From Owenia fusiformis (lineage: Eukaryota; Annelida; Polychaeta; Sabellida; Oweniidae): DNA of 64,000 bases. How positions within the stretch are numbered: position 1 is the stretch's first letter; each line of letters opens with the position of its first letter. The stretch spans positions 29,320,828-29,384,827 of the forward strand of contig CAIIXF020000010.1 in assembly GCA_903813345.2 (NCBI GenBank). The letters are read 5' to 3'. A model generated the notes under the pieces. It was not told the origin of the DNA and searched no databases. It saw nothing but the letters and a program-made list of their open reading frames with translations. The translations under genes were made by a program, and so were the position numbers. Positions 8,991 to 58,422 of the stretch are shown here, piece after piece.

Positions 8991-11900
8991 ATGGAATCAA
9001 CACTAACATGTATTTGCATTTTGATTTTTACCTTGTATGCATCGTGTGAGAATATGATGCCACCAAGCTGGATACGTGAACCAAATGACACGGTAGCAAA
9101 TGTAGGAGACACGATAACACTCTACTGTGAGATAGACAGCTTACCTGAAGCACACAGGGTGAGATGGTATCGTGGATCAGAAAGTGTGGATGAAGTTGTA
9201 CTCAGCAACAATGATCAAATAAATCCAGTATTCGCTGATATCTATGAAATCATTGGGAAATATAATCTCCGCATTAAAATAGTCCAAGATAACAGGGACT
9301 TTACGTATTTTACTTGTGTCGGATTACTGTCCACACTCAGAGGCAGAGTCTCTGTTATAAAAGCTGGTAAGTTATATATTATTCAATATGATTTGTAATA
9401 TTGCACCATGTACAAGTACAAATCGTTAATATAAGTGGACTATTTGTATGATGGGAGTCCAGCAGTTCTGACCTTGAATGATGTCATAAACTACATTTAG
9501 CAAATTCTATAAACATCGGCTGAAAACATAACATACCAAAATATATGTTAACAAACATTAACACAAAACTGAAGCTGATCGGGTATCTGATGAAGAGAGA
9601 GTTCTATATGCGCGCTATATTCATTTTTGTTGATCATTCATTCATGGACTTTGCGTGCACGGTTACGTTGTGAAAAAGTCGTCAGCTTCAGGTCTTTATT
9701 GTTCGTGTTAACAAAGGCACCAATTTATTTTTGACTCGACCTGTAGACACAATAGCAGCACCAGGAGCCACATTGATGCTCTTCTGTAGGTTCAGAACAT
9801 GTACGAGGGTTGTCCAATAAGTCCTGAACTAATTATTATAAGACCAAGAGTTTTTATAAATAAAGGCTGAAATTTCATCAGTTTTATCTTTTGGAATATT
9901 CGATGTACAAAATTTAAAAATGCAATGTATTGTAACAAAAACGTTATGCATGTCCGAACTTGAATGGTACAGAGTACCCGGGGCACATTCTTTTCTCCTA
10001 AAAACGTCACAATTAATGTTAAGACAATATTTTCAAAGCTGTGACCGTCCTTCAAATTTGTTGTCTTGTTACAAGTGATAATGTGAATATGAGTATTGTG
10101 ACAGCTTGTTAAAAATGGTCGTTATTTATAACACCCGTTTCCATAGCAACGGCCCGAGTGAAAACTCTATTTTCCTCAAAATCCTGAAGTATGGTATTGG
10201 GGCTTTCCAATTATAACTTTCTTGTTACATGATATTTTAATTTGAAATTAAAAATACTGATCAGAAAATTTCTAAAGATAACACTGCTGAAATATCAGCA
10301 TTTTATAATATTCTTAGTTCAGGACTTTTCAGACAACCCTCCTATTAAATACGGAAGTTAAATCATTTATATTTTGAGGTTGCATTAGTCGCTTGGAGTG
10401 TTAGTGACGTGTTTTATACATCATCATGGTATATGGAATCGTATTAGGTACGTTAATAGTGTTACCAGTACTTCTCGGTAAGGCTCTCTCTGTTCCAACC
10501 TGGATACGTCAACCAGAGGACACTGTTGCAAATGTGGGAGACAGAGTAACACTCTACTGTGAGATGGACAACTTGGATGAAAGACATCAGGTTGCATGGT
10601 ATAATCCTACAGGGATACCAAAAACGATCAGCAACAATGGAGCTATAAATCCGTATGGGCCAGCATACAAAAATACATATGAAATCACTGGAATGTATAA
10701 CCTTGTTATAAAGAGCATTCATTATAATAACGTTAAAGACTTTTATTGTGAAGAAGTAAATTTCTCATTTAGAAGCAATCCTGTGTCTGTATTCATAGCA
10801 GGTGTGTACCATTTCAATGTTGTGTTTTACGCTTCTCCTCAAAGAGGGTCGAAATAGTAAAAAGACAACGTTGAACCGAATAAAACATATGTATATATAT
10901 ATATTTTAAGAGGGATATTGTAAGTTTTCATGAGCAATATGCAGTGTTTATCTTTTTGCTATATCTCTGAGTGAACACGTCAGTATTATTTTACATCTAT
11001 TTGACGTTCAATTAATGTGAAAATAAAATTGAAAAATAAGATATCGACTTAGGCAAGGTTACGAAATGAAGCATACTACATTTAATGTTCACACAAACCA
11101 CAGTGTCACCTGTCAATTGGGTAAGTACACACGATTAATTCAATATTGTGTCTGTTTATATACTTCTATACATTGCAAGTTTTTAGGAGTACACCGAGAT
11201 AAAGTAAGTAAACACTTAAAAGCAAAACTTTATCGATCTAAAAATGTAAAGATGTGTTTTACAAAAGTTATACTTGCATTGACAATAGTTCGTTTGACAC
11301 TGCAACAAAAATGGTTGCATGAAGGAGAAGACATAGAAGCTAATATAGGCGAGGATGTAACACTTTATTGCGAGCTTGACAATCTTCCGACTCATCATTC
11401 TGTACAGTGGTATATTTGGAGGACGGATATCACACAGTGGTTACTCATCAGTAGAAATAGTACAAGAATTATATACACTCCTCCCCAACATCCAAACTAC
11501 AATATAACTGGAACATATAATCTAAGGATTACTGCAGTGGTAGATATTGATTATACCAAGTTTTATTGTGAAGAGGCAAGGTCTGGGAATCTAAGAAGTA
11601 GAGATTTCTACGTTAGACGACCAGGTATCTATATTCTCCAACAAGATTTACAAAATTTCTCAAATATATTCTCTTCGAAAACCATGGCTAGTTCTCAAAA
11701 TATAACGAATCGATTTACATTTGATTCACGATTCCTTCTGAGCTGCAGATGGTGATGAACCATAACACCAAAATACAAATAATCCAAAATCAAACTAGTT
11801 TCAGGGTTCTTAAATGTTTTTTTCTTAATATCAAGTAATGTCATATATGTATAAGGAATGTCTAAATGACAAATCTATCGAACTATAATTATTGCTATGA

Positions 11901-14900
11901 ATACAATTTGAATATTGCAAAGTTCAAGCATTTGATAACATATCAAATCAAAAATATGATTTACATATAACAGGTATAACATTAACGTATATCGAAGGAA
12001 CCGATATAGAATCAGTGATCTCGCCAGGATTTTTTTCAACTAGGTGGTCAAAAAATCGGCATAACATTTTAAATTTATTTGTTGGTATCTTCGATTGAAC
12101 TAAGATATTGCTGGACTTAACATGTGTGCATAAAATATAACATTATTATGCAATACACCCCCTTTCATTGAATCACTGTAGACACTACAATTAGTGTTGT
12201 CATCAAACCGTCTAAATCTGAATTATAACCTGTTGGATTAGCAGCCATACTTTGACCTACTTTCATTCTCTCCTCTATTCTCATTTAGAATGTGAAGATA
12301 CATGTGGGTGCCCATGGGTGTTAAATTCTATTTAAAATAATATCCATGGCCATAAACGTTACTAGCCATAGTATAGTAGTCAAAGAAGACACCAAACGGA
12401 CAATTTATTTTAATGATAAATACACTTCTGGTTTTCATGCCCGTTGATCGGTAGGGATAATTTACTCAGTATTATTCAAATACTGATGATTGCCTGTCAA
12501 TTTCACTATAGATTGATCTCTAAGGTCGGTGACTGCATTTTCTTTTATTCTGATTATGCTTTGAATATGATTTATAAACCTTATACAACAGATAAGATGA
12601 ATCGCATTTCGTTGATTTAAAAAAAATGTTTTTGAACTAGGTGACGCGCAAACAGTGGCAAATCTTCAATTACCGGCTGTCGATGTTTTAATGATATTTG
12701 AAGTAGGTACGGGCTATGGGCAATCATTCTGATACTCATAGCGTCTTTCTGTTTCACCTGAAACATGCTCTGATATTATGAGGCATATTCTGTGATCTGA
12801 GCACATCAGATGGGAAGAGTCATAACTGTCAATAAGTGTGATAGTTATCATGGAATCATTTACCTTAATGTACAATTACAATACATTACATAATAGGCAT
12901 TGTATTTAACAGCAGATATTACAACAGGCACAGTTACACAAGTTTTATGACCCCAATTAGATGAAATATGAGCTGGGATGAAAGATCTCAAAAATCCTCA
13001 ATTTTGGGCTCTCCTGGATCGCCAAATCAAGCTCATTATATCATGGCATCTCAGGGCTGAAAAGATTTGAGATGTCATGGTTTATCATGATGATGGACAA
13101 TACATAATGCAATTGATAGATGAACAGGTATTGCCCTCCACAGAATGAAATATTTGCTTAATACTATCTACTGCTTGGATAAGGACATGGGAAATTCGAT
13201 AAAGAGTTGTCTGTTGTGGCCCATGTAAATGTGTTCGACTCTGAAATTAGCTAAATAACATGCGTAAGGTTATAAGCCCATTTTGTATTCTTTTCTTTCC
13301 AGTTGCGCCAGACAGTCCACCTACCATATCAAGTAGCAAAGACCTCTCTAATATCAGATCAGGTGACACTCTACAGCTAACATGTTCCAGCACTGGTGGA
13401 GTGGAGGCACCAACTGTAAAGTGGTACCAGGGAAACAAAGAAATTACAGGTATGAAAAGATAATGTTTCTCTAAAAGCATTCATTTTTACAGTATGTAGA
13501 AACAGGTAAGTTAATGCCCCTTTGTTAATTGTTTCCAAACAGAGTGTCAACATATTAATCTGTCTTAGTTCCCGTTTTCTTCCAATAATTCCTTCGGTTG
13601 TTTCAGATACAAGTAAGGTAGAGTTTCAGCCGAATAGCAACTGGGCTACAGCTCCAAGTCAGGCTAGTAAAAATGTACTCACTCTGCAACTCACACCAGA
13701 TCACAATGGGAATACGTATGAATGCAGGGTGACAAATAAGGCCCTTACAGGATATCAGACTGTTCGCAAAATATTAAACGTTAAATGTAAGTAAACAATT
13801 TATTCTTCAATGTTGGAATTTCAAGTAATCTAGCATCGTCGGTTCCACGTTCTGGGGATAGGTCCGAAGCTAGATGAAGCAAGATGGTAATCTAGCCGGT
13901 CATGTAAATTCGACGCGATACATTTTTTACATAGCCGCATTTTTATGAGAAACGTTATAAGAAACGTATCCTAATTTAAAATTGATTTTTTCTGAAGATT
14001 GTCTAATTTAAAGCAAAATTATGTGCGTAAATTTAGAACGTATTATAGGCTTAAATAATCGAGCGTTTTAAAATGTAAACATCTTTTAATTCCAACTTCC
14101 TACTATTGTTTTACCATCCTCTATCCCCCATTCATTTTGAATACCTAGATGCATAACTAAACATTGGTTGATCAGTTTTATAGTTAAATGCGTATTTTGT
14201 GATTTTTCAATGTTACCCTTCCCTTTTAAAATAAGGTATTAATAATTAAATATATAATTACTGTTCCAGATGCACCGCAAACTGTCACTATAGGTCCGAA
14301 TCACTCTCCATACAATGTCATCAAAGGAAAAAATGCAACATTCACATGTACATCTGACGGAAACCCATCTCCTCGCAATTATACATGGAAAAGAGATAAT
14401 GTTCAAATGGAAGCTACGGCTGCTAACACATGGGACAATACAAACGTACAAGAGTCAACAGATCCCGGAACTTACACATGTACGGCTTCAAATAATATTG
14501 GGGATCCGAAGTTGTCAACGAATGCAGTGCAGTTTGATGTCTTATGTAAGTACTTACATTTTCTGTACTTTCTGTATCAGAAATTCAGTTTGAATCATCC
14601 ATATTAAGTATGTTTAAAAAGTGACCTCAATTTGAATGCCCTTTGCTATTATTTAGATCCTCCTACAATAAAGAACTTACAGGATAGCTATATTTACTAT
14701 GAAAATGAACCCCCTTTAAAGATAACGTGTGCAGCTCAGGCTAATCCTGATGATATAACGTATGTCTGGGCTGGGGGACCAGCGAATTCGGATTCTAAAA
14801 CATTAACGATACATAACAGAACCGAGGGAGGTTACTACACCTGTAAAGCAAGAAACAACATGCAGCCAAGTGTTGGTGATTCACAACCTGGAGAAGATAC

Positions 14901-17900
14901 AAAGAATATATATGTGAATGCCTATTGTAAGTGTCCTCCTGGTTTAAATTCAAGTTGCAAATTGAGTTTAAAACTATTTCAAAGTGCATTTTACTTAGAA
15001 TATCCCTGCACCATTACCCCTTAAAATTCGCTGAAGATTTTTTTTATGGATTTAGAGAAAGCGGCCTTCAGTCGCGCGCAATTCCTCTTTCGTGCTTTCG
15101 GACGACTAGTGTGGAGTATTGAACAAAACAAATATTTTGTCAAAATGTTTTCAGATAAACCTTACAATGTAAGATTATCTCCCACCAGTGGCACCATCAC
15201 AAAAGTAGAGAACGATACTCTGCATAATATAAAGTGTGAATCATCTGCCAACCCAACGAGTAGATACGTATGGATCTTCAACAGCACAACAAAACAAAGT
15301 TCTAGTGACACTCTCAAACTTGGGAAATTAAATCGCGACCATCATGGAAGTTACAAATGCGAAGCATCAAACGATGTCGGATATAATACAGTCGAGTTCT
15401 CTTTGGTTGTAGAGTGTAAGTACATAACTGATTCATGGTATACTGAATTTTGAATTTGTCAATATAATATTATGAATGTTTAATACAAAATGTGCGTTTT
15501 ATATTATCATTGTTTGCGATATGTTACTTAAAAAGGTATGATTTGTTGTTTTTAGATCCCTCAGAAGTGACTTACTTTAGATCATCCACAGACCTATGGC
15601 CTGTTCTTGAAAAGTCTAATTTTTTTCTTACTTGCCATGCTGACAGTAGACCAGCATCTAAAATTGAAATTTATTTGGAATCGACAAAATTAAAAGAGGG
15701 CCCTGGAATATTAACACTGGTTTATACCGTCCCAAATGCTTCATGTAGACACATGGGAACGTATAGTTGCGTTGCGAACAATGGACGAGGAAACAGTGTG
15801 TATAAAAGATTCATAACTGTTCATTGTGAGTAGAATAGATCTGGAATTAAATAAATAATAAAATGGAATATTTGATTTGCCAACAATGGAAGTCGATTTG
15901 AGAAATACATGTACTAATAAATAAACAAGGAGCTCACGCATTTCGAACTCACCATTTTATTGTTATGAAGTCGGCGCCTTACCGAGTTCATTCTTGCGCT
16001 CTAGACCTTTCGGCCAAGTCGGCAAAAAGATGTTCCATCAGCCGACTTAAAAGTCTCAAATATTCTTTATCGTCTTTCTAATCGTGTGATGGTTTCAATA
16101 GATTCATGAACAACTATTCTCACACATTACGTTACATACTGGCACTTTTGAAGACTATTAGAGATCTAAGGAAGTGACGATTAAACAACAAGCCTCCTTG
16201 TATTTCAGGTTCACCAGCCGATGATGATATGCATCATTCTCAAACCGAAATATTTGCAAGCGTCGGAGGATCTATGCGTATTGTTTATAATGCCATTGGA
16301 TTCCCAGTGCCGGAATTCAAGTGGTTTAAGCTAGACACAGATAATGAAACATATACTCCCTTGCCGAATCACACCTTACTTTCCGTTAACACAACTAACA
16401 GATACATGCATCGTGCTGTGATGAGCATTCAGGAAGTGAAAGCAACAGACTTTGGAAAATATATCTGCATTGCATCAAACATTGTTAATAGTACAACAAA
16501 AATATTCGAACTAGATGTAAAAGGTATGTACTCAAAGGGCAAGATGTTGTTGAAGTTGGAAAAGTTATACATCGACGACCTCTATAACGCTACATTATTA
16601 ATTTGCTAATTATTCTCGACAATTCATGAATTTCGATCATATTTTGTTGATAGCAAATTATCTAATCAAAGACAATGTGTTGCACATTATATTTATTTGA
16701 TAATAAATTAACGACTTAGTTTATGTTTATTTTATAGTCATGACGTCATGAAAACCATTTGCATTTTACCGAAAGTATTCTAATTTGATCTCAATTGGAT
16801 TACTAAAAGACATTAAAAACAGAGTGAACAACTTTCTACTTTTATTCTGAAATTAACGCTTTCTGTACATCCCTTCACTTCTCATAGTTGGAACCAAATG
16901 TATTAAAGATAATAATTCTTAAAACAACAGAGATAAAATCTTGATGCCTCTCTTATGAAATATTTCCAATTGCTGTTTAAGTGTCGGAACCAGCTGCGTC
17001 CTCAAATATAGGTGTAATAGTTGGAGGTGTATTCGGGGCACTATCTATAGTTGTATTAGTTGTGTTAATCGTTGGTTTCCTACTGCGGAGAAGACGACCT
17101 AATAGAACAGCAGGTAAATATACCAGTAAATGTATTCAATAGAAATAAGCATTAATATTTTTATAGAATGTGTGTCGACTGCTTTGCTTATGTTATTGTA
17201 ATACAAAATGTCTATTGATATTTAGTTTATTTGATATTGTTTAGAAAACGACGAAAACCGTGACCAACAACTGATGGAAATTGAACCAAGTGGTCCCTCG
17301 GCTATTAAAAGCTTTGTTGATGGTTCAGATAACTTAGCTTATGAAACCATCGGGAAATGTGATCCACGTGAGGAAAGGGTTTGTCAATTTCTAGATACTA
17401 CTAATTTAATCTAATGGATACAATGCTGTGTTCAATGCAAATACCCTTGCGACTTCATCTTAATGCACAATTCAAAAGTTTGCGTGAGACCCCCCCCACG
17501 CGGGCATTAGTGGGGGAATTTTACAAAAAAAATGGGCCTGTCTAATTCCTTACGCCGTAGCCAAATAAATGTATCAATTTCCCTACCCCTGGAGCAATAA
17601 ATCTGGTCAAATATTCACGACCCCAGGGTCCTTCCACCATTCCACCAAAATCTATTTTTAAACATCAGAGTTCCTTGTTAGAAGACTGATGCTCATGAGT
17701 GTTCAGGGATACACGTGCAGTATTTTGTTTATTTTTACTTTAATAGGTTACCCCCTCCGTTTTATTCATCTATATCAAATCAATTAAATTTATATTTGTT
17801 CCAACGTAAAAGTTTTCCAAAATTAATTTTAAATTAAATTAATCATCTATATTAAATCAATTATAAGTAGGACTATTTAAGTAGAACGCGGAAGTGCATT

Positions 17901-20694
17901 TTTTCCGAAGGGAGGGCGAAAAGAAGCTTGACAAACCAATAATTAAAACACTGCTCAGCATTCTAGAGTTCCTCTCTCCAGCGGTTATTCTCGGTGATTC
18001 CACCCTTGAATGTAGTTGAGTTATTTTCTTCTGTTCCCGATATGAGCGATATTTAGTTCACTGAATATACCCATTATTTGCAAATTCTAAGGATCCTAAA
18101 GTGTATACTGGACGAAACAGATTCAGTCAAAAATCCCTATTCCCGGGCACATGTAAATCAAATTTCCCAACCCCGGGACGACAATCCTCGACAAAAATCC
18201 TACCCCTGGGGCAATATTGTGTATCATATTCCTTACCCTCCCCGTGTGGGGGTCTCACGCAAACTTTTGAATGGTGCATAAGACAATTTGTTGAAACTAT
18301 ATATCTCAGTTATTAAGTATGGAGGGAAGGCGTGTGAAATTATGGAATGAATTCTAAAATATGGTAGTCTATTTTAAAGTAACCACAACCCTTTGGCATC
18401 TATACTTAGATAATTAGAATAAACAGTCACATTACATGCATTAAGCCTTTATTCCCGATAGACATACGACAATGTACCAAGAGAAAACTTTGAGATATCC
18501 TCAAGTCAGCTGAAACTTGAAAAGGAAATCGGAAAGGGAGAGTTTGGTGTGGTGTGGAAAGGTCAAGGAAAAAACATACCGCTCTGTCATAAAGTTGTAG
18601 ATGTAGCCATCAAGACTCTCAAAGGTAAGATCCAGACAATCACAAAATAAACATATGAATTTGAACTGTTTAATTAATGAACGTTGGATAACATACGGAC
18701 AGAATTGATGAGGTTTCGTACCTAATTCATTTGTATGGTTATTTTCGACAATGGTCACAATCTGTTCAGTTTAAAATCACAGTGATATTGTATAATACTA
18801 CTGTTTTTGTATAATTTCATGTTAAATGCTATATAAATATTCTATACGTGTATCAAAATTGTTTATCTATTCCATAGTTTAGTATATATCTAGTTTGATA
18901 AGATATAAACGTGCGGTTTATCATTCTGTAGATCCAACTGAGAAAAACAAAGGTGACTTTTTAAAAGAACTGGAGGTTATGAAACTGCTCGGTCATCCTA
19001 ACGTTGTAAGTCTGATTGCATGCTGCATCAAAAAAGGTAAGCAAATGCTTAAAACAACATGTTACCATCGAAATGATGTAGCTTCTTTGAGATCCACTGT
19101 ATGTTCATCTTAGAATGTGTGCCAATATAATTCACTCCAAAACCATCACAATAAATATTATATCATAATTATTCCAGACCCATACTATATTGTTGTTGAA
19201 TACATGGAAAATGGTTCCCTGAAAGATTTTCTTAAAAAGAACAGAGCCGATGGAAACAAAGTGTATGACAATCTCCACTCGGGAACAAAGTCACTCACGT
19301 CAAAGCAGCTGTTACTATTTGCGAGGGATGTAGCAAATGGGATGTCTTGTTTGGAATCATACAAGGTAATGCGTTCACAAAACTGATTTAACATGGCAAC
19401 TTAAACTAAATACTTATATTCTGCTTTAGAAATCTGTAAAACGTTGTTTAATGAATTGCAATTATTTTTCATTTGGCATACTAAAATTAGGTAAAATGTT
19501 GGAAAGTTATCTTTTGATAACGACTTTAGATTTAAAACAAACGGTCTACCTTCACTTACCAAACACAATATTTATTTCTCCAGAGCTAGTTGTTTTCTGA
19601 ATATGCATCAACGCTCATATGTTTTCTAGATCATTCATAGAGATTTGGCAGCCAGGAATATCTTAGTTGATAAAGAATTAAGGGCAAAGGTTTCTGACTT
19701 TGGGTTCGCTAGAGATGTTGGAGAGGATGGGACCTATGAGAGAGGATCACAGGTATGATTCATGAATTTGATGTCACTCCTATGAATGACGTAGTCTCTG
19801 CTAATTATTTTATACAAAATCAAAGGCTTTACTCAAATCTGTTATAATTCAACCTGCCATCTCAATGTATACATGATAGTATAATTATATTTTGTTCATA
19901 CAGAATGACTGTAATAGTATGACATATATTGTGAAAAAAAACTTTTTAAGGATCAATATCGTCTTTCCAGGGTAAATTACCTATTCGTTGGATGGCCATC
20001 GAGTCCCTTCTGTACAACTTGAGTACATGCAAGAGTGACGTATGGAGTTATGGTGTTCTGTTATGGGAGATCATAAGTCTGGGTAATTATATGATTTAGA
20101 ATTAAAATGGCACCATATACATATTTAACAGCAATTCGTTTTTATTAAGGAAATTAAAATAAAGCCATTTGTGTTTAACGAAAAGGTGTTAATCATTTAT
20201 GGAGCATTATACACTTTTTTTGTGAACGTGTTATACAGGTGCCACACCATACCCTGGTATGGGAGCCCGTCAGATCATGAAAGACATAGGTCGAGGATAC
20301 AGGATGGAAAAACCTAAACAATGTGATCAAGAAATGTAAGTTACATGTACCTTTATGGATATAGGACATTTTCTTTAACATTGTATGTTTAAATATTAGT
20401 TCTGCAAATAGAATCGAAAGTGTACGAGTACAGCTGTAGATATGATAAATGTAAAAACAATTCATCCTCAACACCTGGGGTATAATACGTTAAGTAATTT
20501 GTTTCAGATACGAGTTGATGTTGAAGTGTTGGAATGAAAGTCCAAACAAGAGACCTGAGTTCAAAACAATTGTTCAAACAGTGAATAACATCATTGAAGG
20601 AAACCACGATGATTATGTAAAGTTAGATGCAATTCCGGAACATATCTATGTTAATCTCCCAAGAATGGATGATGAACTAAATGAACGTATTTAG
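8991..20694 (+). CDS. Seven-Ig receptor tyrosine kinase with ITAM-like tail (complete; isoform using first exon 1a)
   Basis: Coding exons: 8991-9366, 13303-13449, 13607-13786, 14270-14545, 14657-14926, 15155-15415, 15556-15825, 16209-16523, 16982-17113, 17245-17378, 18462-18624, 18932-19036, 19178-19365, 19630-19752, 19971-20082, 20239-20335, 20508-20694. They sum to 3336 nt, 1111 aa, with every junction in phase. Residues: signal peptide ~1-22, Ig1 to 125, Ig2 (two exons) to 234, Ig3 to 326, Ig4 to 416, Ig5 to 503, Ig6 to 593, Ig7 to 698, TM ~706-730, juxtamembrane to 787, kinase ~805-1075. Kinase residues: GKGEFG 811-816, K838, HRD 942-944, DFG 962-964. Tail Y1086-V-K-L and Y1097-V-N-L form an ITAM-like pair; LAYETI in the juxtamembrane fits an ITIM. 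Ig7 lacks the B-strand cysteine. The start is ATG 8991; an upstream in-frame GTG is not needed. Likely a plasma-membrane receptor signalling by autophosphorylation; the ligand is unknown. Exons 1b and 1c can replace exon 1a. Confidence 0.92.
9804..10342. mobile_element. Mariner-like non-autonomous element (539 bp)
   Basis: TIRs CGAGGGTTGTCCAATAAG at 9804 and, inverted, ...TTTTCAGACAACCCTCC ending at 10342, both followed inward by TCCTGAACTA. TA flanks both ends (9802-9803, 10343-10344). This is a mariner-type terminus; the interior has no intact transposase. It lies between first exons 1a and 1b, ending 83 bp before the ATG of 1b. Confidence 0.8.
10426..10801 (+). CDS. Alternative first exon 1b: signal peptide + N-terminal Ig domain
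   Basis: ATG at 10426, then a hydrophobic leader ([15 protein letters not shown]), then an Ig domain starting [15 protein letters not shown] with LYC, WY and DFYC. It is 376 nt long, exactly the length of exon 1a, and ends phase 1 at a GTGTGT donor, so it can splice to 13303. Without splicing the frame stops after ~18 further codons. It has its own leader, so it is an alternative first exon (own promoter) rather than an internal Ig exon. A separate one-Ig secreted product by read-through is possible. CGGAAGT lies 74 bp upstream. Confidence 0.75.
11252..11624 (+). CDS. Alternative first exon 1c: signal peptide + N-terminal Ig domain
   Basis: ATG 11252, leader [19 protein letters not shown], then a divergent Ig domain ([37 protein letters not shown]). 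It is 373 nt, ending phase 1 at a GTATCT donor, compatible with the acceptor before 13303. The WYIWR-x-DI segment is shared with the first exon of the third receptor (47662) and not with 1a or 1b, hinting at exchange between the loci. An upstream in-frame ATG at 11066 would give a longer, non-signal-like start; I prefer 11252. Confidence 0.7.
11625..13302. other. Intron between first-exon cassettes and common exon 2
   Basis: About 1.7 kb of AT-rich sequence. I looked for further [11 protein letters not shown]-type cassettes and found none; no repeat structure seen either. Confidence 0.5.
15930..16030 (-). repeat. tRNA-derived SINE fragment
   Basis: On the minus strand TGGCCGAAAGG (A-box-like, as in tRNA-Leu/Ser) is followed by a second GGTAAGGCGCCGAC D-arm-like block and a degenerate B box (GAGTTCGAAAT). 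It cannot fold as a functional tRNA. It sits in the intron before the Ig7 exon of the second receptor. Confidence 0.5.
17464..18278. mobile_element. PIF/Harbinger-like MITE (815 bp), TAA duplication
   Basis: TIRs TGCACAATTCAAAAGTTTGC at 17464 and its inverse ending at 18278, extending ~32 bp through GTGAGACCCCC. Flanked by TAA on both sides (17461-17463, 18279-18281). Internal short repeats of the form CCCTACCCCTGG/CCCAACCCCGGG. A three-base TWA duplication is typical of PIF/Harbinger. No transposase. It lies in the intron between the juxtamembrane exon and the glycine-loop exon. Confidence 0.75.
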
Positions 20695-21165
20695 GCAATT
20701 GATCATATGGAAAATAACTGGCACACAAGAAGACAAAACCTGCGTTCAAGTAATTGATGTAAAGTGGTCTAAATAATAGAATGGTAGATCCAGAAATTTT
20801 GATAACAATGCTAAACGTTTATTATTTACTTTTCAAGAATATTTGCACAGCAATAGGGTTATGCATATCCTCATAAATCATGAAAATGTTAAATCTGGCA
20901 AGGAATATTTTATTAGTTTTCTTTTGACTAAATATTCAAAACTTCACTGCAAGGTTTAATTCTACAAATGAATGTTTCAGTAGTAACTACTGGTCTGTTT
21001 TGGTAGTAACAGACAAAGTCATAGAATCATACATATTCCACCATGACAACGCTCCGTGTAGGAGATCTGGTATGGTCCAGGATGATATCAGCAACAAGTT
21101 GAATATGTATTGGAACATTCTACACCCTCCTAAGATACTTTGCTTTGTTTGGACACCTAAGGAGG
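20695..21165. other. 3' flank of second receptor gene
   Basis: Probable 3' UTR and flank; closely resembles 5103-5570 after the first receptor stop. No additional gene seen. Confidence 0.5.
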
Positions 21166-21167
21166 GA

Positions 21168-21690: not shown

Positions 21691-21757
21691 GCAGTTTATC
21701 GATTCATAAGTCTGATTTTTCGAATGGTTTTTGGTGATGTTTCTTGGGTTGTAGTCC

Positions 21758-23776: not shown

Positions 23777-23779
23777 GCT

Positions 23780-46171: not shown

Positions 46172-46272
46172 TCATGCAAGTGTGTGGCCTAATGGAGTAA
46201 GGCGCGGAGTCATAGTTTTGATAGATGGAATCCAGCTGTCGGTGGTTCGATTCCCGGTCAAGACTAGGTTTT
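46172..46272 (+). repeat. tRNA-derived SINE head or tRNA pseudogene
   Basis: A box TGGCCTAATGG at about 46186 and B box GGTTCGATTCC at about 46245, followed by T runs. The T-stem and acceptor do not pair well, so a working tRNA is unlikely. Confidence 0.5.
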
Positions 46273-46760: not shown

Positions 46761-47128
46761 ATGTTTTGGAGAATTGCATATGTATTCGGAGCTATGGTTT
46801 TACCTTTGTTCCTCTGTCAAACTCTACCACGAACCTGGATACGTGAACCAGAAGACACTGTAGCAAATGTAGGAGATACAAAAACACTCTATTGTGAGCT
46901 AGATAACTTACCACAAGGGCACTTTGTGAAATGGTACATTGCATCCAGTAATCAAGATATTTCTACAAATTGGAAATGTGAATCAAAATTTCATTGGTGT
47001 TTATGAAATCACTGGAACATACAATCTTAGGATTATAAGTGTCACGGACAACAGGGATTTTACACAGTATTATTGCCAAGAGTTAATAAGCAATATTAAG
47101 AGCAAGACTGTCTCAGTCATTAAAGCAG
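46761..47128 (+). pseudogene. Frameshifted alternative first exon (signal peptide + Ig1) of the third receptor
   Basis: ATG 46761, leader MFWRIAYVFGAMVLPLFLC, then [26 protein letters not shown]. The frame then shifts near 46970 and continues as [26 protein letters not shown] in another frame to a GTAAGT donor. Length is 368 nt, one more than a phase-1 exon needs, so a single extra base (in AAATTGGAAATG) explains it. Intact sister exons are at 8991, 10426, 11252 and 47662. Either a dead cassette or an assembly error. CGGAAGT lies 62 bp upstream of the ATG. Confidence 0.75.
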
Positions 47129-47661
47129 GTAAGTAAGCCATGACATTCAACATTGTTACAACATATGTTGCTAGTTTTACATATACGAAAGAAATGCAGG
47201 ATGGTCTGATACAACTTGGGCACTTCTGACCTACATACTATTAATTAGAAATATTGCGATACTAGTGATAATGGCATTTCATCAGTGGCAAGAGAGGAAG
47301 TACACATAATGATTTAAACACGTAGTGAAACGTGTTAAAAATCAGTTTATATGCTATAATTTTGATCTGCGACATTGATAATACATCAACTTCTCCTGAG
47401 TATAGTCAGGAGTGTACGAGTACATGTATATGAATTGATAGCAATTAATTATGTTGGTAAAGAACTATTCGGATTTTCGCAATATTTGGATTTCGTTTAT
47501 CAAGTTGGTATAGAACGTTAGACCCGTAAATAAACAAAGTGTATTCAAGTGATAAATTGTTGACCTTCATCATTCTGACGAGGAAGTTTAAAACATGAAA
47601 TCAAAGTGTATATAGATCGTTCCATTATGTTTAGCGTTTGTCGAAAAATTCATGATCAAAT

Positions 47662-50600
47662 ATGAACATGTTTTGTGAAAATATATTCTGCGCTGTGATT
47701 CTGACCACACTTTTTTGTCAAGCGGAAACTCTTACACCAACCTGGATACGTGAACCAGAGGACACTGTTGCAAATGAAGGAGATTCAATAACATTATACT
47801 GTGAGATGAATAACTTACCTCCAACACCCAGAGTGAGATGGTACATTTGGAGGATAGACATTGATCCTCAGGCTGAGCAGAGTATTAGTACTAATGAAGA
47901 TGTAGAGGATACTTTTACAGCTATCTATGAAATCACTGGAACATACAATCTTAGGATAAAAAGTGTCACCGACAACAGGGATTTTACCCAATTTCGTTGT
48001 GAAGGATTATTTGCTGGTCTAAAGAGCAACACTGTCTCTCTCATCAAAGCTGGTAAGTATACACATATTCTACAGCCTATTTGTACGAGTTCATATGGTA
48101 CACATAATCAATATAATGTGACTTATAGTATCAGAGGATTCGCCAGGACGAGTATTCTACAGCCTATATGTACGAGGTCATATGGTACACTTCTTCCGTA
48201 TAAGCTGACTTATAGTATCAGAGGATTCGCCAGGACGAGTATTCCACAGCCTATTTGTACGAGTTTATATGATACACATCATGCCTATAATGTGACTTAT
48301 AGTATCAGAGGATTCGCCAGGACGAGTATTCTACAACCTATTGTACGAGTTTATATGTTACACATTATCCTTATAATGTAACTTATAGTATCAGATGATT
48401 CGCCAAAATGAGTATTCTAATAGCCTATTTGTACGAGTTAATATGGTACACATCATCCATATAATGTGACTTATAGTATCAGAGGATTCGCCAGGACGAG
48501 TATTCTACAGCCTATTTGTACGAGTTTATATGGTACACTTCATCCCTATTATGTGACTTATAGTATCTGGGGACTCGCTGGGACGAGTATTCTACAATCT
48601 ATTGTACGAGTTCATATGGTGAGCATCAGCCGTATACTGTGATTTATAGTATCAGAGGACTCACAGGGGCGAGTATAAGCTTGCGAAGATAGGTCGCTAA
48701 GTGGGGAAAATGTCATATTTTATACATTATTGCTCTTAGTTTTTACACAGCTGTTAACAATTCATTATAAGGTCGACCATTTATGAAACAGTTTGTCAAA
48801 TGTTCAAACCATTAGTTTTACATTCAAGCTTAAAGATTCGCGCAATCTTTATCCAATCAGCGTTTGCGATGTGTATCGGCTCACGTATAAAACACGAATC
48901 CAACTCCAAATCCATGCAGGGGTGTATGAGGTACTCGAATCGGAAAGAGCTCGTGAAATCTGAATTTACATGCACATGGTCAATGTTTACACATGTTTGG
49001 AGTTATTGAAGAAAATGTGATATGGGGGTGGTTCCGAATTTGAAGTCATTGCTGGAAAATATGATTTTAATACGTGGAATTATATCTATACAGCACTAAA
49101 AATAACAGTACACATGAAGTACATGTATGATTGTGTCTAGAAATGTTTGAAACCCTTACGGAAAATTCTGTCTGCATTTTGTCACCATTGCTCTTTCTTC
49201 CCGCATTCTAGTGCTATTTGAATGAATATATTTATTAATGTGTTTCTAACTAAAATATATCACATTTTTTATTAACCACAAACATTTAGATCATAAAAAA
49301 TTATTCAATACTTGAGTGAGCACGATATGCAAGGGTTACAAAGTTGACACAGTAAATGACCACTGATATTGAGTTAGTCCATGCACACAGCGTATTCTGC
49401 TAATACATATTTGCTAACACCCCTCACTTTCATAGTGAAGTGACTAATTGGTTTATGTTTACGTTTTAATGTGTTTTGTGTTCCTTGTTGCAAGGGGGGC
49501 CAGTAAAGTAGACTGACATATTTTCATGGCAAGTTTTGATCGAATATGTGAGACACTTTAAAATCTAGTCTTATTTGTCCCCTTGTGACAACAGTGCTTC
49601 CATGCTAGAGTCCTACATGTACACCACTTACTTGTAACGCGTAACATTGTGATAGTAAAGGCCCGGTCACACCGCCCGGACGTTGCTGGAGCGTTCCTTG
49701 AACGTTGAAAAAATTCATCAACGCTCGTAAACGTTCACCACCGTTTAACAAAAGTTGGCATCCGTTAAAGCAACGCTGTAAACGCTCGGCCAACGCGGAT
49801 GTTTCTCGAGTGGCCATCCTAACGCTCCAAAAGTTTTGAGCTGCTCAAAATATTGCGAGCGTTGAAAAAGGGACAATTTTACGCCCTGGCAAAGTTGATC
49901 ACCGCTCCACCAACGCCCAGTCAAAGTTTGGCACCGCTAGACGCAAGTTCGTGGACGCTTGAATCCGCTAGACCAACGCAGAAATCTTAAACGTTGGACC
50001 ACCGCTGCTTCGCCAGCGTTGCCCGGGCGGCGATTAAACGTTGCACAAACGTCGGTGGAGCGGTTGTTAGCGTTTTATCAGCGTACATGGGGTTGTTGGA
50101 ACGGTGTCGGACGTTGTCGCAGCGTTCCATGGCGGCGATGAACTTTGCTTTGGCGTTGGTACAGAGGTGTCGGAGCGGGACCAGAATTTGGCTATAAATA
50201 CGTCGAGAAATGCATCACTGTGTAGAACACTGTGGAGACACTTGTGCATGTCTGGCATTTCAATTTTTTGCATTGTAAATTCCTAAATTAAGCGCTCAAA
50301 GTTTGTGATTTTGGATTTTAAAAAGGTGAATTATGCGATTTTTGTTTTTCATTAAATGTTAATACAAATAGACTTATACTGAGACCTTTATTCAAATATA
50401 GTATATACCTAGTGTTTTCACGTCAAGCAATTCAATAAATTATCTGTGAATTTTCTGCGCAGCTTGTTAAATGTTGCACTCGTCATGGTATTATACAAAA
50501 AGTTGATGCGCGCACAGCAATGCTAATAAAATTTGTCATGCGTCATGATTATTACCTTGCTGTAAATGTTATTTGACATTGTTAAAGCAATTTGAACGTA

Positions 50601-53600
50601 AATCGGTTCCAAGTAATGGAAATGCAACGATTAAATTGTGATATGTTTGTTTGAAATGATATGAGAGATTATTAAAGAAAATTGTAATGTTATTCATTCT
50701 TAATGTCATATTACATTAATAGAAGCACTTTAGATTTAAAACATTTCTTCTTTAATCCTTGAAGGACTTTTGTTAAAGTTACAAATTCCAATAAAGGTCT
50801 TTACTCTTAAACACTTCCCACTTGAAATAATTTCCCAGTAGTCAAACGCGACATGCTGCTAAACCAACGCTGCTGCTATTTATACCCTCGCCGAGGCAAC
50901 GCTCTCATACGCAGAACGCCGCTATACCAACGCTCGCATTACCGCTAAACAAACGCTAGCTACCGCTCGCAACCGCTTAACCAACGCTAAAGCAACACCG
51001 GCTTCAGCGGTGCACCGCTAAGCCAACGACGCCCGTGTTTTTGTTTTTCTCCCCATTTTGTGCGCGTTGACGAGCGTTGATGAATGTTTTCAACGTTCAA
51101 GGAACGCTCCAGCAACGTCCGGGCGGTGTGACCGGGCCTTAAAGTACAGTATCTTTTGCACTTCCAGTTGCCCCAAGCCAGCTTGTGATATCAGGGGCCG
51201 ATATTATCATAGAAGGAAGTGATGCCGTACTAACCTGCTCAAGCTCTGGTGGGAAAGAAGCCCCAAATACAAAATGGTATAGAGATGGAAACTCAATTAC
51301 AGGTATCACTATACTTTATTCATTTATTCATTCGTCCGGCAGTCCATCCGTGCATCCAACAACATTTCGATCCATCAATCAATCAGTACATTCATCCATC
51401 TCTGCATCAATCAATCCATGGATCCAGCCATTCTGGCATCCATCAGTGCATCCACCCACCTGTGCATCCACCCACCCGTGGATCTATCAATCCGTGCATC
51501 CATCCATCCGTGCATCCACCCATCCGTGCATCCATCCATCCGAGCATCCACCAATCCGTGCATCCATCCACCCATCCGCCGATCCGTGCATCAATCCATC
51601 CATCCGTCCATCCGTGCATCAATCCATCCATCCGTCCATCCACCCATCCATCCATCCGTCCATCCACCCATCCATCCATCTGTGCATCCATCCATCAATC
51701 CATCCGTCCGTCAACCCATCCATCCATCCGTCCGTCCGTCCATCCATCCGTCCGTCCACCCATCCACCCATCCATCCACCCACCCGCCCATCCGTCCGTC
51801 CGTCCGTCCATCCATCCATCCATCCATCCATCCATCCATCCATCCATCAATCCGTACATCCATCCATTTATCCATTCCTCCCATCCATTCCTCCCTTCCA
51901 TGCATTCATCCAGTTGTGTTGATATTCTGTTCTCTGTCGAGTGAATATACTGTTCTCTTTGTATACACTCAACCTATTATGGGTATGTTTATGTAATAAA
52001 GTTGATAGATCGTATCCTTGTGTATCTGATGAACTGATGATGATATATACGAAGGTTCGTTACTCTAATTACTCCAAGAATACTGATGACTATTGTAAGA
52101 TATTTATTGTAATTTTTATACTCCGAGGATTTTAATGGGTCCATGTAAGCTGCAACCAGACTCTTATTTTAATCGGATGTAATATCTTTAGACATGGTTG
52201 TGGAGAATCGCAATAAAAACTGGAAGACCAATCCCGGTGCAACAAGTTCAAGTGTCTTGACTATACCAAAGGTGACACAGAATGAACACGACAAGGTTTA
52301 CCAATGCAGAGTGAGCAACACAGCAACTAAGAACACTCCGTTAACAGAGGATGTCAAATTGGATGTGAAATGTAAGATGTGAAATGTTGGTTTAGGTGTT
52401 TTGAATCCTTTCAACATGGTGCTAAATTATAGTTTTGTCCGTTTTGGTTAAAATATGTTAATATTTGAATATCCGTTTAACAGATATTTTGAACAGAATT
52501 TTGCACTAACTTGTGGAAAATGATGCGGAGAACACTTCATGTTCCGAAAATCCCTAAAAACATCCTTAGTCTATCGCAGTTTATCAAATAAACAAATCGC
52601 TTGCAAAGTGGACAATGATACACCTTAGACGTCAAATAAAACATTACAAATAATGTACTTTGAAAATATTATTTACATTCCAGATGGCCCTAAAAGTGTA
52701 ACAGTTGGTCCATACTTGGATTACAAAGTTATTCAACGACAAGATATTACTCTTACTTGTTCTGGTGACAGTAATCCATCCCCTACTTCTTACCAATGGA
52801 AGAAGGGAGGTACACCTATTCCTGGAGCAACCAATCAGAACTACCCGATAACAAATGTTCAAACTTCTCACGATGGCACATATACATGTACAGTTGCTAA
52901 TGGCATTGGGAATGAAAAGACATCTGAGGGTCTTAAACTTGAAACATTATGTAAGTAGTATGTACTTCATTATCAATGTTGCATCAAATTGTCCAATCAA
53001 CACAATCATTTAATTGTTAAAAAGTTTAATTGTTAAAAACAATAAAAAGGAAAATAAAAGAGTTCTTCATACTCATAATCCAAATTTATGCTTTGTTCCT
53101 TAATATATGTTATTCTGTGGTGATTTCAGTCACCCTTATTATTTTAATGTGTGATTTATTCTCAAACTAATATGAATCTCTCTAGATCCCCCTACTGTGA
53201 ATATTCAGCCGACATACACATATCCAGAGACAGATTTGCCAAGAATTATTACATGTTCTGCTGACAGTAAACCCAGTCCTACCAAATATGTTTGGAAGAA
53301 AAGAGGAGAACAATCCAAACCAGATGGGCCAACACTGACAATAACAAATAGAGGCAATAATGGAACTTATGAATGTACTGCTACCAATGAAATGAATCCA
53401 AGTGGAAAGGATCCACAAACGGGGAGTGACACAAAGGAAACATTTGTTGATGTTCAATGTATGTATGACTAATCAAATGGGATTTACTATGATTGTTTTC
53501 AAGTAATTGTGCTCAAACTATTGCTCATAATAGTAGTATTGATATTACTGATAAAAATGGACTAAATTCTGAAGCCGATTCTTTTATACATATATAGTAA

Positions 53601-56600
53601 CATAGTATAAATTCAATTACATGGAGTGGTAGATGTAATGAGTTAGCAGGTTTACATTGCTTGTTGTTGGTGTAGATCTGATCCACACATCTCATTAATA
53701 ACAAATGGAGTTTGGGGTTTATAAGGAAGAGAAATGAACATGAATGAAATTATCATAGGTATATTGAACAGAATAGTATTTTTGGAAAGTGATTTCTAGA
53801 TCTGATACAGTGTTTAAACCAATTTTAAATGCAAGTTCTCTGTAGTTCTCAATACTGTTCAGCTCAATCATAACAACACTGCAATATATCCAGCTCTATA
53901 CTTTAGATTCACAGTAATTACTGTGCCAAAACACATATTGTATAACATATTGAAATGGACATTTTTATAATTTCTAGTCAAGCCTGGTGCACCTCAAGCA
54001 ATTAGAAGTACTGTGACCGTTCACACTACCTCCACAGCTATTCTTGAGTGCAGTCTTTCTGAATCTGAGCAAGGGAACCCTAGATCTTCTATGTTCAGAT
54101 GGAAAAAAAGTGGTATAAGCGTTGGTGAACACACTGGAAGATATTCAAGGCCAAATGTTAATGTGGCAAAGGATGATGATTCATACACCTGCACACCATT
54201 TAACAAAATTGATGATGGATCGTCAGCAACCATTCAGCTATATGTTCAAGGTACTGCATATACAGTCGTAGATGAGATGTTCTAACGCACCTATAGCAAA
54301 TTATGCTATGTTTGTAAACTTTATGTACTATATACTAAAATAGCCATCGCTTAAAACGTTGTTTAAAAGAAAATCCTTATCTCTCTTTTAGGCAGATGCT
54401 TTGCATGAAGTAATATCCCTATTATTAACAAGCAATTCAGAGTAGAAACCCATTCGTTTTTGATGAAAAGAATCTTTAGTTAGATCGATAAAATATATAA
54501 GGGTTATGTACTGGGAGGTTTTGGATACAGGTTTTATCCCAAGGGAAATATGTGTATATCCCGAGGGACCGCAGGGACTGAGGGATATACACATATTTCC
54601 CGAGGGATAAACCCTGTATCCAAAACCGACCGTACATAACAGATGTATTTCATACCTACTGATGTTCTAGGTACGTCATATACCTTATAAAGTTCCAAAA
54701 TTCAAAAATATACTTAAGATACGCATTTTCTTGGTGTTATAAAGTGGTTTTTTAAGTTTCTGAGATTATCCAACTCATATAACTCATATTTTGAAAAATA
54801 ATGTGAAAAGAAATTTGGGAAAAAATGGGAAAAAATTTTTGAAAAAAAAATTGAAAAAAATTGAAAAAAAAATTTGAAAAAATTGTGAAAAAAATTATAG
54901 GAGCGGGACCGGGATGGATACAGCGTGTATCCATCCCGCCCCGGGGCTTGGCTAGATACAGTATATATTCCCGCTCGTTATGTACCTAGAACCTCAGTAG
55001 GTATGAAATACAAATCTGTATACATACATGTAATTGAATTATTGTAATTGAATTATTGTACTCAAGTACACCTTTTTGGAAACCCAATAATTCAATTCAC
55101 TTATGAATTAACGTATCCATAAAGATAAGTTATGCTTTCACATTTGAACAAAATCTCTCTTTTAATGAACAAAATGCGTAAATGAAGTCTCACGTATGAT
55201 CTTCATAGTATTTCCAATGGATTTATAAGTACCTGATCTTTCATTTGACAACAAAAACAGCTCAAACAAATCACATCAGAGTTAACATTAGATCATGAAA
55301 AATATTTTCGATCTATCAATTTATATATGTCAAGTTTTTAGCAATGCCATTGAAAGATTGCATTGTTGTTTGCATTAATTATCCATTCTTTTTTGATAGG
55401 ATTTTCAATCATACGCCAACTTTTGATCCAAGAGTTATTTAAACATACACTGTGAAAAGTGGTAATTCACTTATTTTGATCTCTGAACTTCTATGCTGTT
55501 TTCTATGCAAGTAATTTTTTTCACTTCAGTATTGACCAAAATTAAAGTTTTTATCATATTTGATTGAGTGTGTGAGTGATAATATTTTGTCCTTTTTCTT
55601 CCTTCAAAAATAGGCGCACTGCCTGTTTAAATTTTGGATATTGATGTAACAAAACTTTCATGACCCAGCTTTAATCTAAAGAAAATTAGATACTCAGTTC
55701 CATATCGTCGCGACGATACCAGTGGCCATTCAAATAATCTTCTTTTTTCAGTAAAGCCGACATTTACTTCACAAATACCTGAAACTGTTAGTGTTGTTAA
55801 CACTGACCCATTGGATATAAAATGTCAGGACACTGCAAGACCGGGCTCTACCTATAGATGGTATCACAATAACATCGAACTATTGAATGATGATGGAGAC
55901 ATATATGCACATTCAAGCACACAGTCAATTAGGGGAAAGTTTACAAACACAGTCAGTACATTAAGATGGAAGACATCATCTTTTGTAAAAAGACGTAGTG
56001 GGAGTGGTGCCGTGAAATGTAAAGCTGATAATGCCGCAGGGACATCTGACCTTTCATTCAATATAAATGTACAGTGTGAGTATAAAGCTACACCTACTAT
56101 CAGAGTACATTGACCTTCATCAGTTCATAAACTTTACAGAGTTTAAAATACAAATTCACTTTTCATATTCCAAGTGACATGGTACTACGTTTGACCAAGA
56201 AGGGGTTGAGCAATTTATCCAAAAGCTCCTTACGTTCTAGCCTCTAATTTCAAAGTAAAAGGATTTTTTTTAATATGAATATAGAAATATACCAAAAGGT
56301 AAAATGCTTGATTCAAATGTGCATATTTTGCAAATGAAAACTTGAATGTTTTGATTAACATTAGATTAATCCACATTTAGTTAAACCATATGGGACTACA
56401 CTAACAGAGATGGGAACGGTTACAAAGGTGGAGAATGAAACACTGAATGATGTAAACTGCCACTCAAATGCCAACCCTCAAAGCACATTAGAGTGGACAT
56501 CAACGGCTACTCAGCCTGTCTCAAGTTCTGGTGGTGTTTTAAATATGGGGAAATTAAACAGAGACCACCATGGAGGATATACATGTAATGCTTCAAATAA

Positions 56601-58422
56601 CATAGGATATGAGACCAAACAATTCAACATAGTTGTTAATTGTAAGAAATTGTTGTTATTATTACTAAGTGTAAAAGCCAAATTGATATGATTCACACAG
56701 GATATCTAGTCTATCTGAGTCTAGGAAATTTCGGAAATTTAGAGTAATCGCCTTTGACACTACTGAGTTTTAATTGATACAACGCATGGTACTCTCTCAT
56801 CTTACAACAATCTAATTATATGGCTTTCTTCTATTAAGATATTAATTACATTTTAATTGGCAGTCAGAATCCATAAGAGGCAATATTAGAAAACATCAAA
56901 ACAAAGTACAATAAGAAAAGAGTGACATTTCCTTTTTTATTGTTGATTCTCTGCTACACTGCTTCATTCAGATCAATTGCATTAATATATTCGTGATTCG
57001 CACTGGCGGCAAATTTGAATGTAAGACGGTCCACTTTTAGAAGTATCGACAGATGATCTTAAAAATAAAAGGATTATGAGAAAATGAACTCCTATGGTTG
57101 TTTGAGCAAAATACATTATGGAAATGTGATTATTTTGGCTGTGAAACTATCGGAAGTACCACTGTTTATATTATCAGAATGATAGACTGACTAATCAAGT
57201 ATCTTAAAACACTCAGTTAAATGAAGATGCTACCATGGCAATGCTTTAATTTTGTTTAATTTGATTTAATTTAGTTACACATATCTACAGTTGAAGACTC
57301 ACTCTATAATGTAACTCGATGGTGACATTTAGTTATTTAGTGACACGTTAGTGCCCTATATAACCGTTCTGTTTTAATTCCAGTTCCATCAAAAGTGATA
57401 AGTTTGTCATCATCCTCCGGGACAACCATTGTAGAAAACACAGAATTCACCGTGTCATGCAGAGTTGAAGGACGCCCGATATCTAATGTAGGGCTTTACT
57501 TGGATAACCAGAGAGTGGAAGGACCAATTAAAAAACATGAATTGGATCACTATGTTAAAAGTGCCTCATGTCGGAACATGGGAACATACATATGTGAGGC
57601 TTACAATAACATTACAAACAAACTTGGTGATAAACAAGAGATCTCAGTTGAAGTTCTTTGTAAGTATTGCCGTGTACAAAATTATGTCATTATTACATTT
57701 TGTCAATTTCTTAGTCACATCCTTGGTCGGAGGGTATTTCACTTCATTACATAGACTGAATTGAAAAGTTCCATCATTGACTGGTTAAAAGATGGTACCA
57801 GCGGGTCTTACTCGGTGGTATGTTGGCTCACACCGGGTTTGGATTGTATTCGTTTTTTAAGTACATAGTAAATGCGATTTCCTCAATTAGGTATCTCGAA
57901 GTTAAAACTATTTCAAATCAGTTACTAATGCAAGTTACGGAATTGTCTGCTATTTTTGTACTGATTCTCATTAAAAAGCCACATAATAATATATTTCATT
58001 CAAACTAAAGATATTCAACCATAATCTAAAATCAGTACGTTTGTGAAAAGAATATTCGAGACATACACATATATTAAAATGATAACAATTCTCACGATTC
58101 TTTTCAGGTTCCCCAACAGATGATGATACAAATCCTTCACAAACTAAAACTTTTGCAAATGTTGGGGATGATAGGAGTTTTGTTCATAATAACATCGGCT
58201 TCCCAATGCCTGAATTCAAATGGTTCAAGCTAAACGCTGAAAATCACACATATTCGCCCCTGCCGAACCACATCTCCACGTATGTGAACACATTTAACAG
58301 GTACACCCATCGTGCTGTGATGAACATTCAAGGAGTGAAAGCAACAGACTTTGGAAAATATATTTGCAGAGCATCAAACGTTGTCAGTAACACAGAAAAG
58401 ATATTTGAACTTGACGCAACAG
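47662..58422 (+). CDS. Nine-Ig receptor, 5' part (TM and kinase exons not found in window)
   Basis: Exons 47662-48052, 51168-51302, 52192-52371, 52684-52950, 53186-53458, 53978-54250, 55752-56075, 56381-56641, 57384-57659, 58108-58422; 898 codons, all junctions phase 1. The leader [19 protein letters not shown] is followed by Ig1 ([29 protein letters not shown]), Ig2 over two exons, then seven single-exon Ig domains. Exons 56381, 57384 and 58108 correspond one-to-one, with equal or near-equal lengths (261, 276/270, 315 nt), to the last three Ig exons of the second receptor. Exons 53978 and 55752 have no counterpart there. The last Ig lacks the B-strand cysteine, as in the second receptor. By analogy it should continue to TM and kinase, but no such exon appears in the 5.6 kb to the window end. 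A TATATAG lies 47609-47615 upstream of the ATG. Confidence 0.88.
48060..48690. repeat. 87-bp tandem repeat (~7 units) directly after the Ig1 donor
   Basis: Units with TTGTACGAGTTCATATGGTAC and AGAGGATTCGCCAGGACGAG recur every ~87 bp from 48060. Because 87 is 29 codons, the frame of the preceding exon stays open for three units (to 48381). Later units diverge. Confidence 0.85.
49659..51139. mobile_element. PIF/Harbinger-like element (1481 bp), TAA duplication
   Basis: TIRs AGGCCCGGTCACACCGCCCG at 49659 and the inverse ending at 51139, extending ~75 bp through GGACGTTGCTGGAGCGTTCC. Flanked by TAA (49656-49658, 51140-51142). The subterminal regions are packed with AACGCT/ACCAACGC/AACCGCT motifs in both orientations, typical transposase-binding arrays. 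No transposase; the short frames inside are incidental. It lies in the first intron of the third receptor, ending 28 bp before the Ig2 exon. Confidence 0.8.
51309..51910. repeat. CATC/CCGT tetranucleotide-type array (~600 bp)
   Basis: Long run of CATC, CATCCATC, CGTC and CACC tetramers within the intron after exon 51168-51302. It leaves stop-poor frames in several phases on both strands ([16 protein letters not shown]), which are not genes. Confidence 0.95.
54501..54641. repeat. Large imperfect hairpin
   Basis: Arms of ~60 bp: GTTTTGGATACAGGTTTTATCC ... GGATAAACCCTGTATCCAAAAC, with ATATGTGTATATCCC and its inverse nearer the loop at about 54567. It is part of a nested palindromic element in the intron after exon 53978-54250. 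Confidence 0.75.
54643..55012. mobile_element. Short TIR element (~370 bp) next to the hairpin
   Basis: Ends TGTATTTCATACCTACTGA at about 54643 and the inverse TCAGTAGGTATGAAATACA ending near 55012, with a GTTCTAGGTAC continuation. The interior has a low-complexity GAAAAAAATTTG run and a small perfect palindrome, GGGATGGATACA/TGTATCCATCCC, at about 54911-54938. No coding capacity. Confidence 0.65.

Follow-up and report, generated by a model that had tools for sequence, protein, structure and literature searches.

Vertebrate clustered protocadherins encode the entire cadherin ectodomain in a single large first exon. Diversification of an N-terminal recognition domain by promoter choice is known for adhesion molecules, namely the clustered protocadherins and the sDscam genes of Chelicerata, as set out in the main text of the sDscam paper (PMC4835542). 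According to that text, sDscam genes carry tandem 5' cassettes coding for the N-terminal immunoglobulin (Ig) domain or domains, each with its own promoter and spliced to a common body; downstream cassettes too can be spliced to the constant exon, besides the cap-proximal one; and the genes tend to stand in tandem, with a cassette number that varies by gene. Drosophila Dscam1 is diversified by mutually exclusive splicing (PMC4835542, main text). Here we describe a receptor tyrosine kinase locus in the annelid Owenia fusiformis, contained in a window of 64,000 nucleotides (G000:C10:29320828-29384827) of a 498 Mb genome in 525 contigs, in which three homologous first exons, each coding for a leader and an Ig domain and referred to here as cassettes, stand before the single body of gene 1. 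We consider it probable from the sequence that the leader and outermost Ig domain of this receptor are supplied by any one of these three interchangeable first exons, selected by promoter choice. The genome of this species and RNA data by stage are already published (PMC9977687).

The cassettes are named 1a, 1b and 1c (gene 1) and 2a and 2b (gene 2); N-numbers are positions of cassettes on contig C91, and M2912 is on contig C51 (Table 1). An earlier note, made from the letters of the window, had placed five first exons here, and there is indeed an ATG at the start of each and a GT donor directly after its end. The note had also taken each of the five to encode a signal peptide and an Ig domain up to a phase-1 donor, which applies to 1a, 1b, 1c and 2b: each has an open frame from the ATG through a hydrophobic leader and an Ig domain, ending in phase 1. 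The remaining exon, 2a at 46761, is frameshifted by one base and then meets a stop, and a set of five usable first exons was rejected on this ground. Identity to 1a is 40% for 1b, 36% for 1c and 52% for 2b. All four match the Pfam model Ig_3 (E value 1.5e-8 for 1a, 4.4e-5 for 1b, 3.8e-5 for 1c and 6.4e-7 for 2b), with 1a and 2b passing the curated cut-off of the model and 1b and 1c missing it. A weak trace of a decayed cassette lies between 1a and 1b (9686-9793, E 0.08) and may be due to chance.

When 1a, 1b and 1c were each joined in silico to the same 16 downstream exons, with the exon borders placed by hand at AG acceptors and GT donors, a single open frame resulted in every case (1111, 1111 and 1110 amino acids respectively). 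This, together with an exon-by-exon Pfam count of seven Ig domains, bears out the earlier description of a seven-Ig receptor with three first exons before a common exon 2; the exon 2 copies at 13303 and 51168 both begin in phase 1 after AG. The spliced 1a form contains a full kinase (PF07714 at residues 804-1074, E 8.1e-93), and at E 1e-10 no models other than those for Ig and kinase match it; no fibronectin type III (FNIII) model was found on the gene 1 Ig exons at E 0.1, nor on the gene 1 model at E 1e-10. The spliced model of gene 1 thus has the ectodomain, single transmembrane (TM) segment and complete tyrosine kinase, G-loop and DFG motif included, of a receptor tyrosine kinase. Among solved chains, the top row for this kinase bears the label EGFR (9p9u), and FGFR, Tie2 and RET kinases come next among the nearest.

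Under promoter choice, each of 1a, 1b and 1c would probably have its own promoter. A transcript would start at one cassette, the phase-1 donor of this cap-proximal exon would be joined to the exon 2 acceptor at 13303, and any further downstream cassette would be removed with the intron because it has no good acceptor. The outcome would be one signalling body with different ligand-facing tips. We infer that each promoter fires, that each cassette is spliced to 13303 and that the tips differ in ligand. Promoter choice is favoured by the combination of three intact and constrained first exons with no body exon between them, good donors, poor acceptors, a shared upstream element, and an array of further cassettes on C91.

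The wider family was recovered by genome searches in which match counts are lower bounds. Query 2b gave at least 18 matches: six rows on C10, the contig of this cluster (five cassettes, 2a being split over two rows), and further matches on C91 (eight), on C51 (three) and on C7 (a weak one, E 0.0013). Query 1c also gave at least 18, of which C10 has six, C91 seven and C51 one, the other four lying elsewhere (E 4.5e-5 to 0.02, 24-29% identity). Among the matches listed, clear cassette relatives occur only in this cluster and on C91 and C51, which are both unplaced; sorted by frame, the listed matches comprise 11 intact cassettes (four on C10, six on C91 and one on C51), one frameshifted cassette and four remnants, and a fifth remnant lies on C91 near 126919 (E 1.6e-4). 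By comparison with these 11 intact cassettes, exon 2 has four copies in the genome among the matches listed. Five of the intact cassettes stand in a row on C91 (103247, 104323, 128551, 129659 and 136171), with remnants at 125394 and 135377 among them. Between the cassettes of C91:103247-136546 there was no match to exon 2, Ig, TM or kinase sequence at E 1e-4, and at E 10 only chance-level pieces of body exons (best E 0.004). The contig ends at exactly 140000, and any body exons served by the five-cassette array would lie beyond the visible sequence. Homology among the cassettes, together with the intact C91 array, makes a chance arrangement unlikely. C51 and C91 share stretches that are up to 98.8% identical; some of their copies may be allelic, and we considered that the two contigs could be alternative haplotypes, either mutually or with respect to the C10 cluster. 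The run of five intact cassettes within C91 is unaffected by this question.

Upstream of the cassettes, CGGAAGT was the most over-represented 7-mer (four of six groups; nominal 1.7e-5 over 1708 words, uncorrected) and it sits within a longer element of 19 bases, ACGGAAGTWAAATMATTTA. This is present exactly at 1b (-76), N104323 (-286), N129659 (-320) and N136171 (-295), and N103247 has a copy with three differences (-256). A matrix trained on four C91 sites, with no C10 or C51 site in training, gave ranks 1-7 to sites on C91 and found its best C10/C51 match just upstream of 1b (rank 8 overall), with a score reached by none of 5000 random 400-bp stretches. The exact pattern, derived from C91 sites and widened to admit 1b, has six matches in 498 Mb, all of them in arrays (1b, three intact C91 cassettes and two broken C91 units). 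Synonymous divergence (dS) between 1b and the C91 cassettes is about 1.0-1.6, and an exact 19-base non-coding match at such a distance argues for selection. A 111-bp block around one C91 site has seven matches, all at cassette units of C91 or C51, and a dispersed repeat was rejected for this reason as the nature of the block upstream of the C91 cassettes. Three element sites on C91 with no adjacent intact cassette were considered as a contradiction of a promoter role, and this too was rejected since the units concerned are broken: the site at 125991 heads a truncated unit that an insertion with inverted ends has divided, and at 136967 and 130387 likeness to other units stops 20 to 160 bases past the element. 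Units on C91 are interrupted by insertions, one of which (C91:126039-126669, with inverted ends) parts a cassette unit from its upstream element. This candidate element is the main support for separate promoters, which for gene 1 comes chiefly from 1b; on sequence grounds we regard its presence as established for 1b, suggested for 1a and unsupported at the rest of the window.

The ratio of non-synonymous to synonymous change (dN/dS, method NG86) was 0.22-0.68 in 48 of the 55 cassette pairs, the remaining seven, all with 1c, being saturated; such ratios among paralogues say nothing on constraint per branch. Of 15 pairs chosen for a bootstrap of pN/pS, 12 had an upper 95% bound under 1, the others being N129659-N136171, N128551-M2912 and N25910-N104323. 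1c is the most distant member, saturated against seven of the ten others, and only one of eight inner branches of the cassette tree is well supported (N128551 with M2912). These data bear on the alternative that a single cassette is used, for example 1a or the nearest one, 1c, and that the others are leftovers of tandem duplication that have not yet decayed. Decay is certainly real in this family, with 2a frameshifted and four remnants; N128551 and M2912 are without the upstream element, and the C91 units are broken by insertions. However, 1b and 1c are old (dS between them about 2) and yet fully open, with amino-acid change below synonymous change; they keep donors of 8.6 and 6.9 bits respectively, and 1b keeps its upstream element. 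We therefore regard this alternative as unlikely, although it is the strongest of the three considered.

Splice sites were used to weigh promoter choice against a Dscam1-like arrangement, in which a shared upstream 5' exon would be spliced to one of several cassettes. Sites were scored with matrices built on body-exon sites (38 acceptors and as many donors), taken automatically as the nearest AG or GT, of which a few may be wrong. All 12 cassettes have a GT donor, in phase 1 in all 11 that are intact, and the scores of these donors (6.2-11.1 bits) compare with a body-exon median of 8.2 (n=38). Acceptors were sought from -80 to +60 around each cassette ATG. In 11 of the 12 cassettes, including all five of the window, the best acceptor scored 0.3-5.7 bits, like those of random 140-nt stretches (median 3.9 bits, 90th percentile 8.3), and in 10 of the 12 it was under the 10th percentile of body-exon acceptors (4.6 bits; median 8.1; n=38). 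In 10 of the 12 cassettes the ATG is preceded by an in-frame stop at a distance of no more than 63 bp, the exceptions being 1c (-222) and N128551 (-132); poor acceptors and upstream in-frame stops together make most cassettes look like true first exons. An acceptor before each variant exon, as in Dscam1, was thus not found, by a test of motif score only. Two cassettes fit the Dscam1-like arrangement better, since N25910 has a good acceptor of 10.4 bits 45 bp before its ATG and is without the upstream element, and the candidate acceptor at -47 of 1b, with 5.7 bits, falls within the range of body acceptors; with the other scores as low as they are, we hold splice choice to be improbable. Least credible is that the cassettes yield short secreted single-Ig decoys by read-through past the donor and ending in the intron, for although the open frames continue slightly beyond the donor and 9 of the 12 cassettes have polyadenylation hexamers in the 600 bp that follow them, the hexamers stand at varying distance and many are expected in AT-rich DNA (no control was run), and a good donor at the same place in all 12, in the same phase except in 2a, is needless for a read-through product.

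Besides the limits given above for dN/dS and for acceptor scores, and the acceptors of 1b and N25910, a number of observations weigh against promoter choice. The exact element is present at only four of the 11 intact cassettes; matrix scores as high as those at 1c, 2a and 2b occur in 2.3%, 12% and 32% of random stretches respectively; and there is no GGAAGT core within 900 bp of N25910, N128551 or M2912, which are otherwise intact. The 111-bp block has no match at 1b, which has only the element itself in common with the C91 site. With one mismatch allowed, the pattern has 12 matches (7 in arrays) by comparison with 55 for its reversed control; as the pattern was also shaped on its own sites, the placement of the element is informative and the number of its matches is not. 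Gene 2 has a single intact cassette, and cassette splicing and promoter use are predicted here from the genome sequence.

If promoter choice does operate, the part of the protein that varies is the outermost Ig domain, and constraint is spread unevenly along it. Pooled ratios for seven close cassettes were 0.45 for the leader, 0.30 from the N terminus to the first Cys, 0.55 for BC, 0.86 for C-C'-D, 0.24 for D-E-F, 0.90 for FG and 0.66 for the G strand, with block limits set by eye and no significance test applied. The pattern resembles that of a binding tip, in which loops change more freely on a conserved frame. The structure model of 1a reached a predicted local distance difference test (pLDDT) score of 69, by comparison with 37-43 for four other models, and its best structure matches were antibody light-chain V domains, JAM-A and RAGE, all at E > 0.001; we propose with modest confidence that the modelled 1a tip is a V-like Ig domain. 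An immune or allorecognition role, which the earlier note had raised, is no more than a guess, with which the freer loops and the cassette turnover are compatible.

Gene 2 had been read in the earlier note as a nine-Ig receptor with two first exons. Nine domains were obtained by exon count and homology, with Pfam scanned on only some of them, and the TM segment (66586) and kinase (67191-69966, in window coordinates) lie within the next 10 kb past the window; the two first exons reduce to one, as 2b alone is intact in this assembly. Several homologous first exons before one body are therefore found at gene 1, and promoter-choice first exons on a receptor tyrosine kinase, as the note proposed them, are the best-supported reading there and are not supported by this assembly at gene 2. 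By eye, a tandem repeat with units of roughly 80-90 bases occupies 48060-48680, directly after the 2b donor, and an element with long inverted ends (ggcccggtcacaccgcccgg...) at 49660-51140 stops shortly before the gene 2 exon 2 acceptor. Four genome queries, for the cassette, exon 2, an Ig5-like exon and the last Ig exon of this family, found nothing upstream of gene 0, a third copy of the signalling end; gene 0 may be a truncated copy or have a different ectodomain. The kinase regions of genes 1 and 2 align through their introns at 85.6-91.6% (TM region 69.6%), and the kinase ends of genes 1 and 0 do so at 74-87% (16900-20700 versus 800-5100), whereas two compared Ig exons of genes 1 and 2 are 54% and 67% identical in protein. 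Likeness of the kinase ends even in introns, and not of the ectodomains, points to a recent or homogenised signalling end on an older ectodomain, and suggests that among the three genes this end has undergone gene conversion or was duplicated recently. Elsewhere in the window, an open frame at 25228-25482 resembles what we take to be a THAP zinc-finger domain. A COX1 search for the mitochondrial code gave no match.

C91 also carries a gene of its own, with cassette N25910, exon 2 (27409), Ig exons as far as 41393 and a TM exon (48874), that shares with the C10 genes the same cassette family, the same last Ig and a homologous TM. No kinase match was found on C91. Downstream of the TM exon are open stretches with repeated NPYG (54834) and YAQPDK (57616) motifs, preceded by acceptor-like sites as judged by eye; no Pfam model matches either stretch, and across the genome a YAQPDK query has no match besides its own place. 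These tyrosine-motif stretches are likely part of the C91 gene, in place of a kinase. A more tentative proposal, which we think has the odds against it, is that one cassette family deals V-like tips by promoter choice to both a kinase receptor (C10) and a kinase-less tyrosine-motif receptor (C91), the number of intact first exons per array ranging from one to at least five. The C10 receptor would then signal by itself and the C91 receptor presumably via recruited SH2 proteins, which, if true, would resemble paired receptors for recognition of self/non-self or of microbes.

Table 1. Positions of cassettes, upstream elements and gene parts in the window
Feature	Position	Strand	Description
Cassette 1a	8991..9366	+	First exon; leader and V-like Ig1 (modest confidence); phase-1 donor GTAAGT
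Cassette 1b	10426..10801	+	First exon; leader and Ig1; phase-1 donor GTGTGT
Cassette 1c	11252..11624	+	First exon; leader and Ig1; phase-1 donor GTATCT; most divergent cassette
Cassette 2a	46761..47128	+	Frameshifted in this assembly, so that its frame as a first exon is not open
Cassette 2b	47662..48052	+	Sole intact first exon of gene 2
Upstream element of 1b	10351..10369	+	Exact match to C91-array pattern
Partial element match upstream of 1a	8812..8833	+	0.6% of random 400-bp stretches score as high
Gene 1 common exon 2	13303..13449	+	First half of Ig2; phase-1 start after AG; without own start codon
Gene 1 Ig exons	13607..16523	+	Six exons, all phase 1; second half of Ig2, Ig3-Ig7
Gene 1 TM exon and juxtamembrane exon	16982..17378	+	
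Gene 1 tyrosine kinase exons	18462..20694	+	Seven exons, through stop codon
Gene 2 exon 2 to last Ig exon	51168..58421	+	Nine Ig domains with 2b
Gene 0	848..5066	+	Third copy of TM, juxtamembrane and kinase end

A search of the open literature by title and abstract gave no description of first-exon cassettes on a receptor tyrosine kinase, which is not proof of absence, and the term 'tyrosine kinase' does not occur in the main text of the sDscam paper (PMC4835542). If transcripts confirm promoter choice at gene 1, diversification of a recognition tip by this route would extend to a receptor tyrosine kinase, and the identity of the tip would feed directly into kinase signalling. It would then become possible to test ligand range, expression of one tip per cell, and recognition of self and non-self.

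Given these features, gene 1 can be set beside each of the known systems. It resembles Ig-type receptor tyrosine kinases in its Ig ectodomain, single TM segment and complete kinase domain, and differs from them in having several homologous first exons for the outermost Ig. With Dscam1 it shares the diversification of the Ig domains of one receptor by exon choice; unlike the internal exons of Dscam1, the cassettes have a start codon and leader, and 10 of the 12 are without an acceptor in the normal range. The likeness to protocadherins that was first suggested for this locus holds for the tandem first exons; the first exon here codes only for the leader and outermost Ig, unlike that of the clustered protocadherins, and there is a kinase here and none there. 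The sDscam genes are the closer parallel, since they too swap N-terminal Ig domains via tandem 5' cassettes before a common body. Each cassette is a single exon here by comparison with two or four in sDscam, and the ectodomain is of Ig domains only and joined to a tyrosine kinase, whereas the Dscam body has Ig and FNIII domains; at least 40 cassettes are described for one sDscam gene in the text consulted, by comparison with three on gene 1 and at least five intact in a row on C91. With a kinase and without an FNIII or cadherin model, gene 1 belongs to neither the sDscam nor the protocadherin family.

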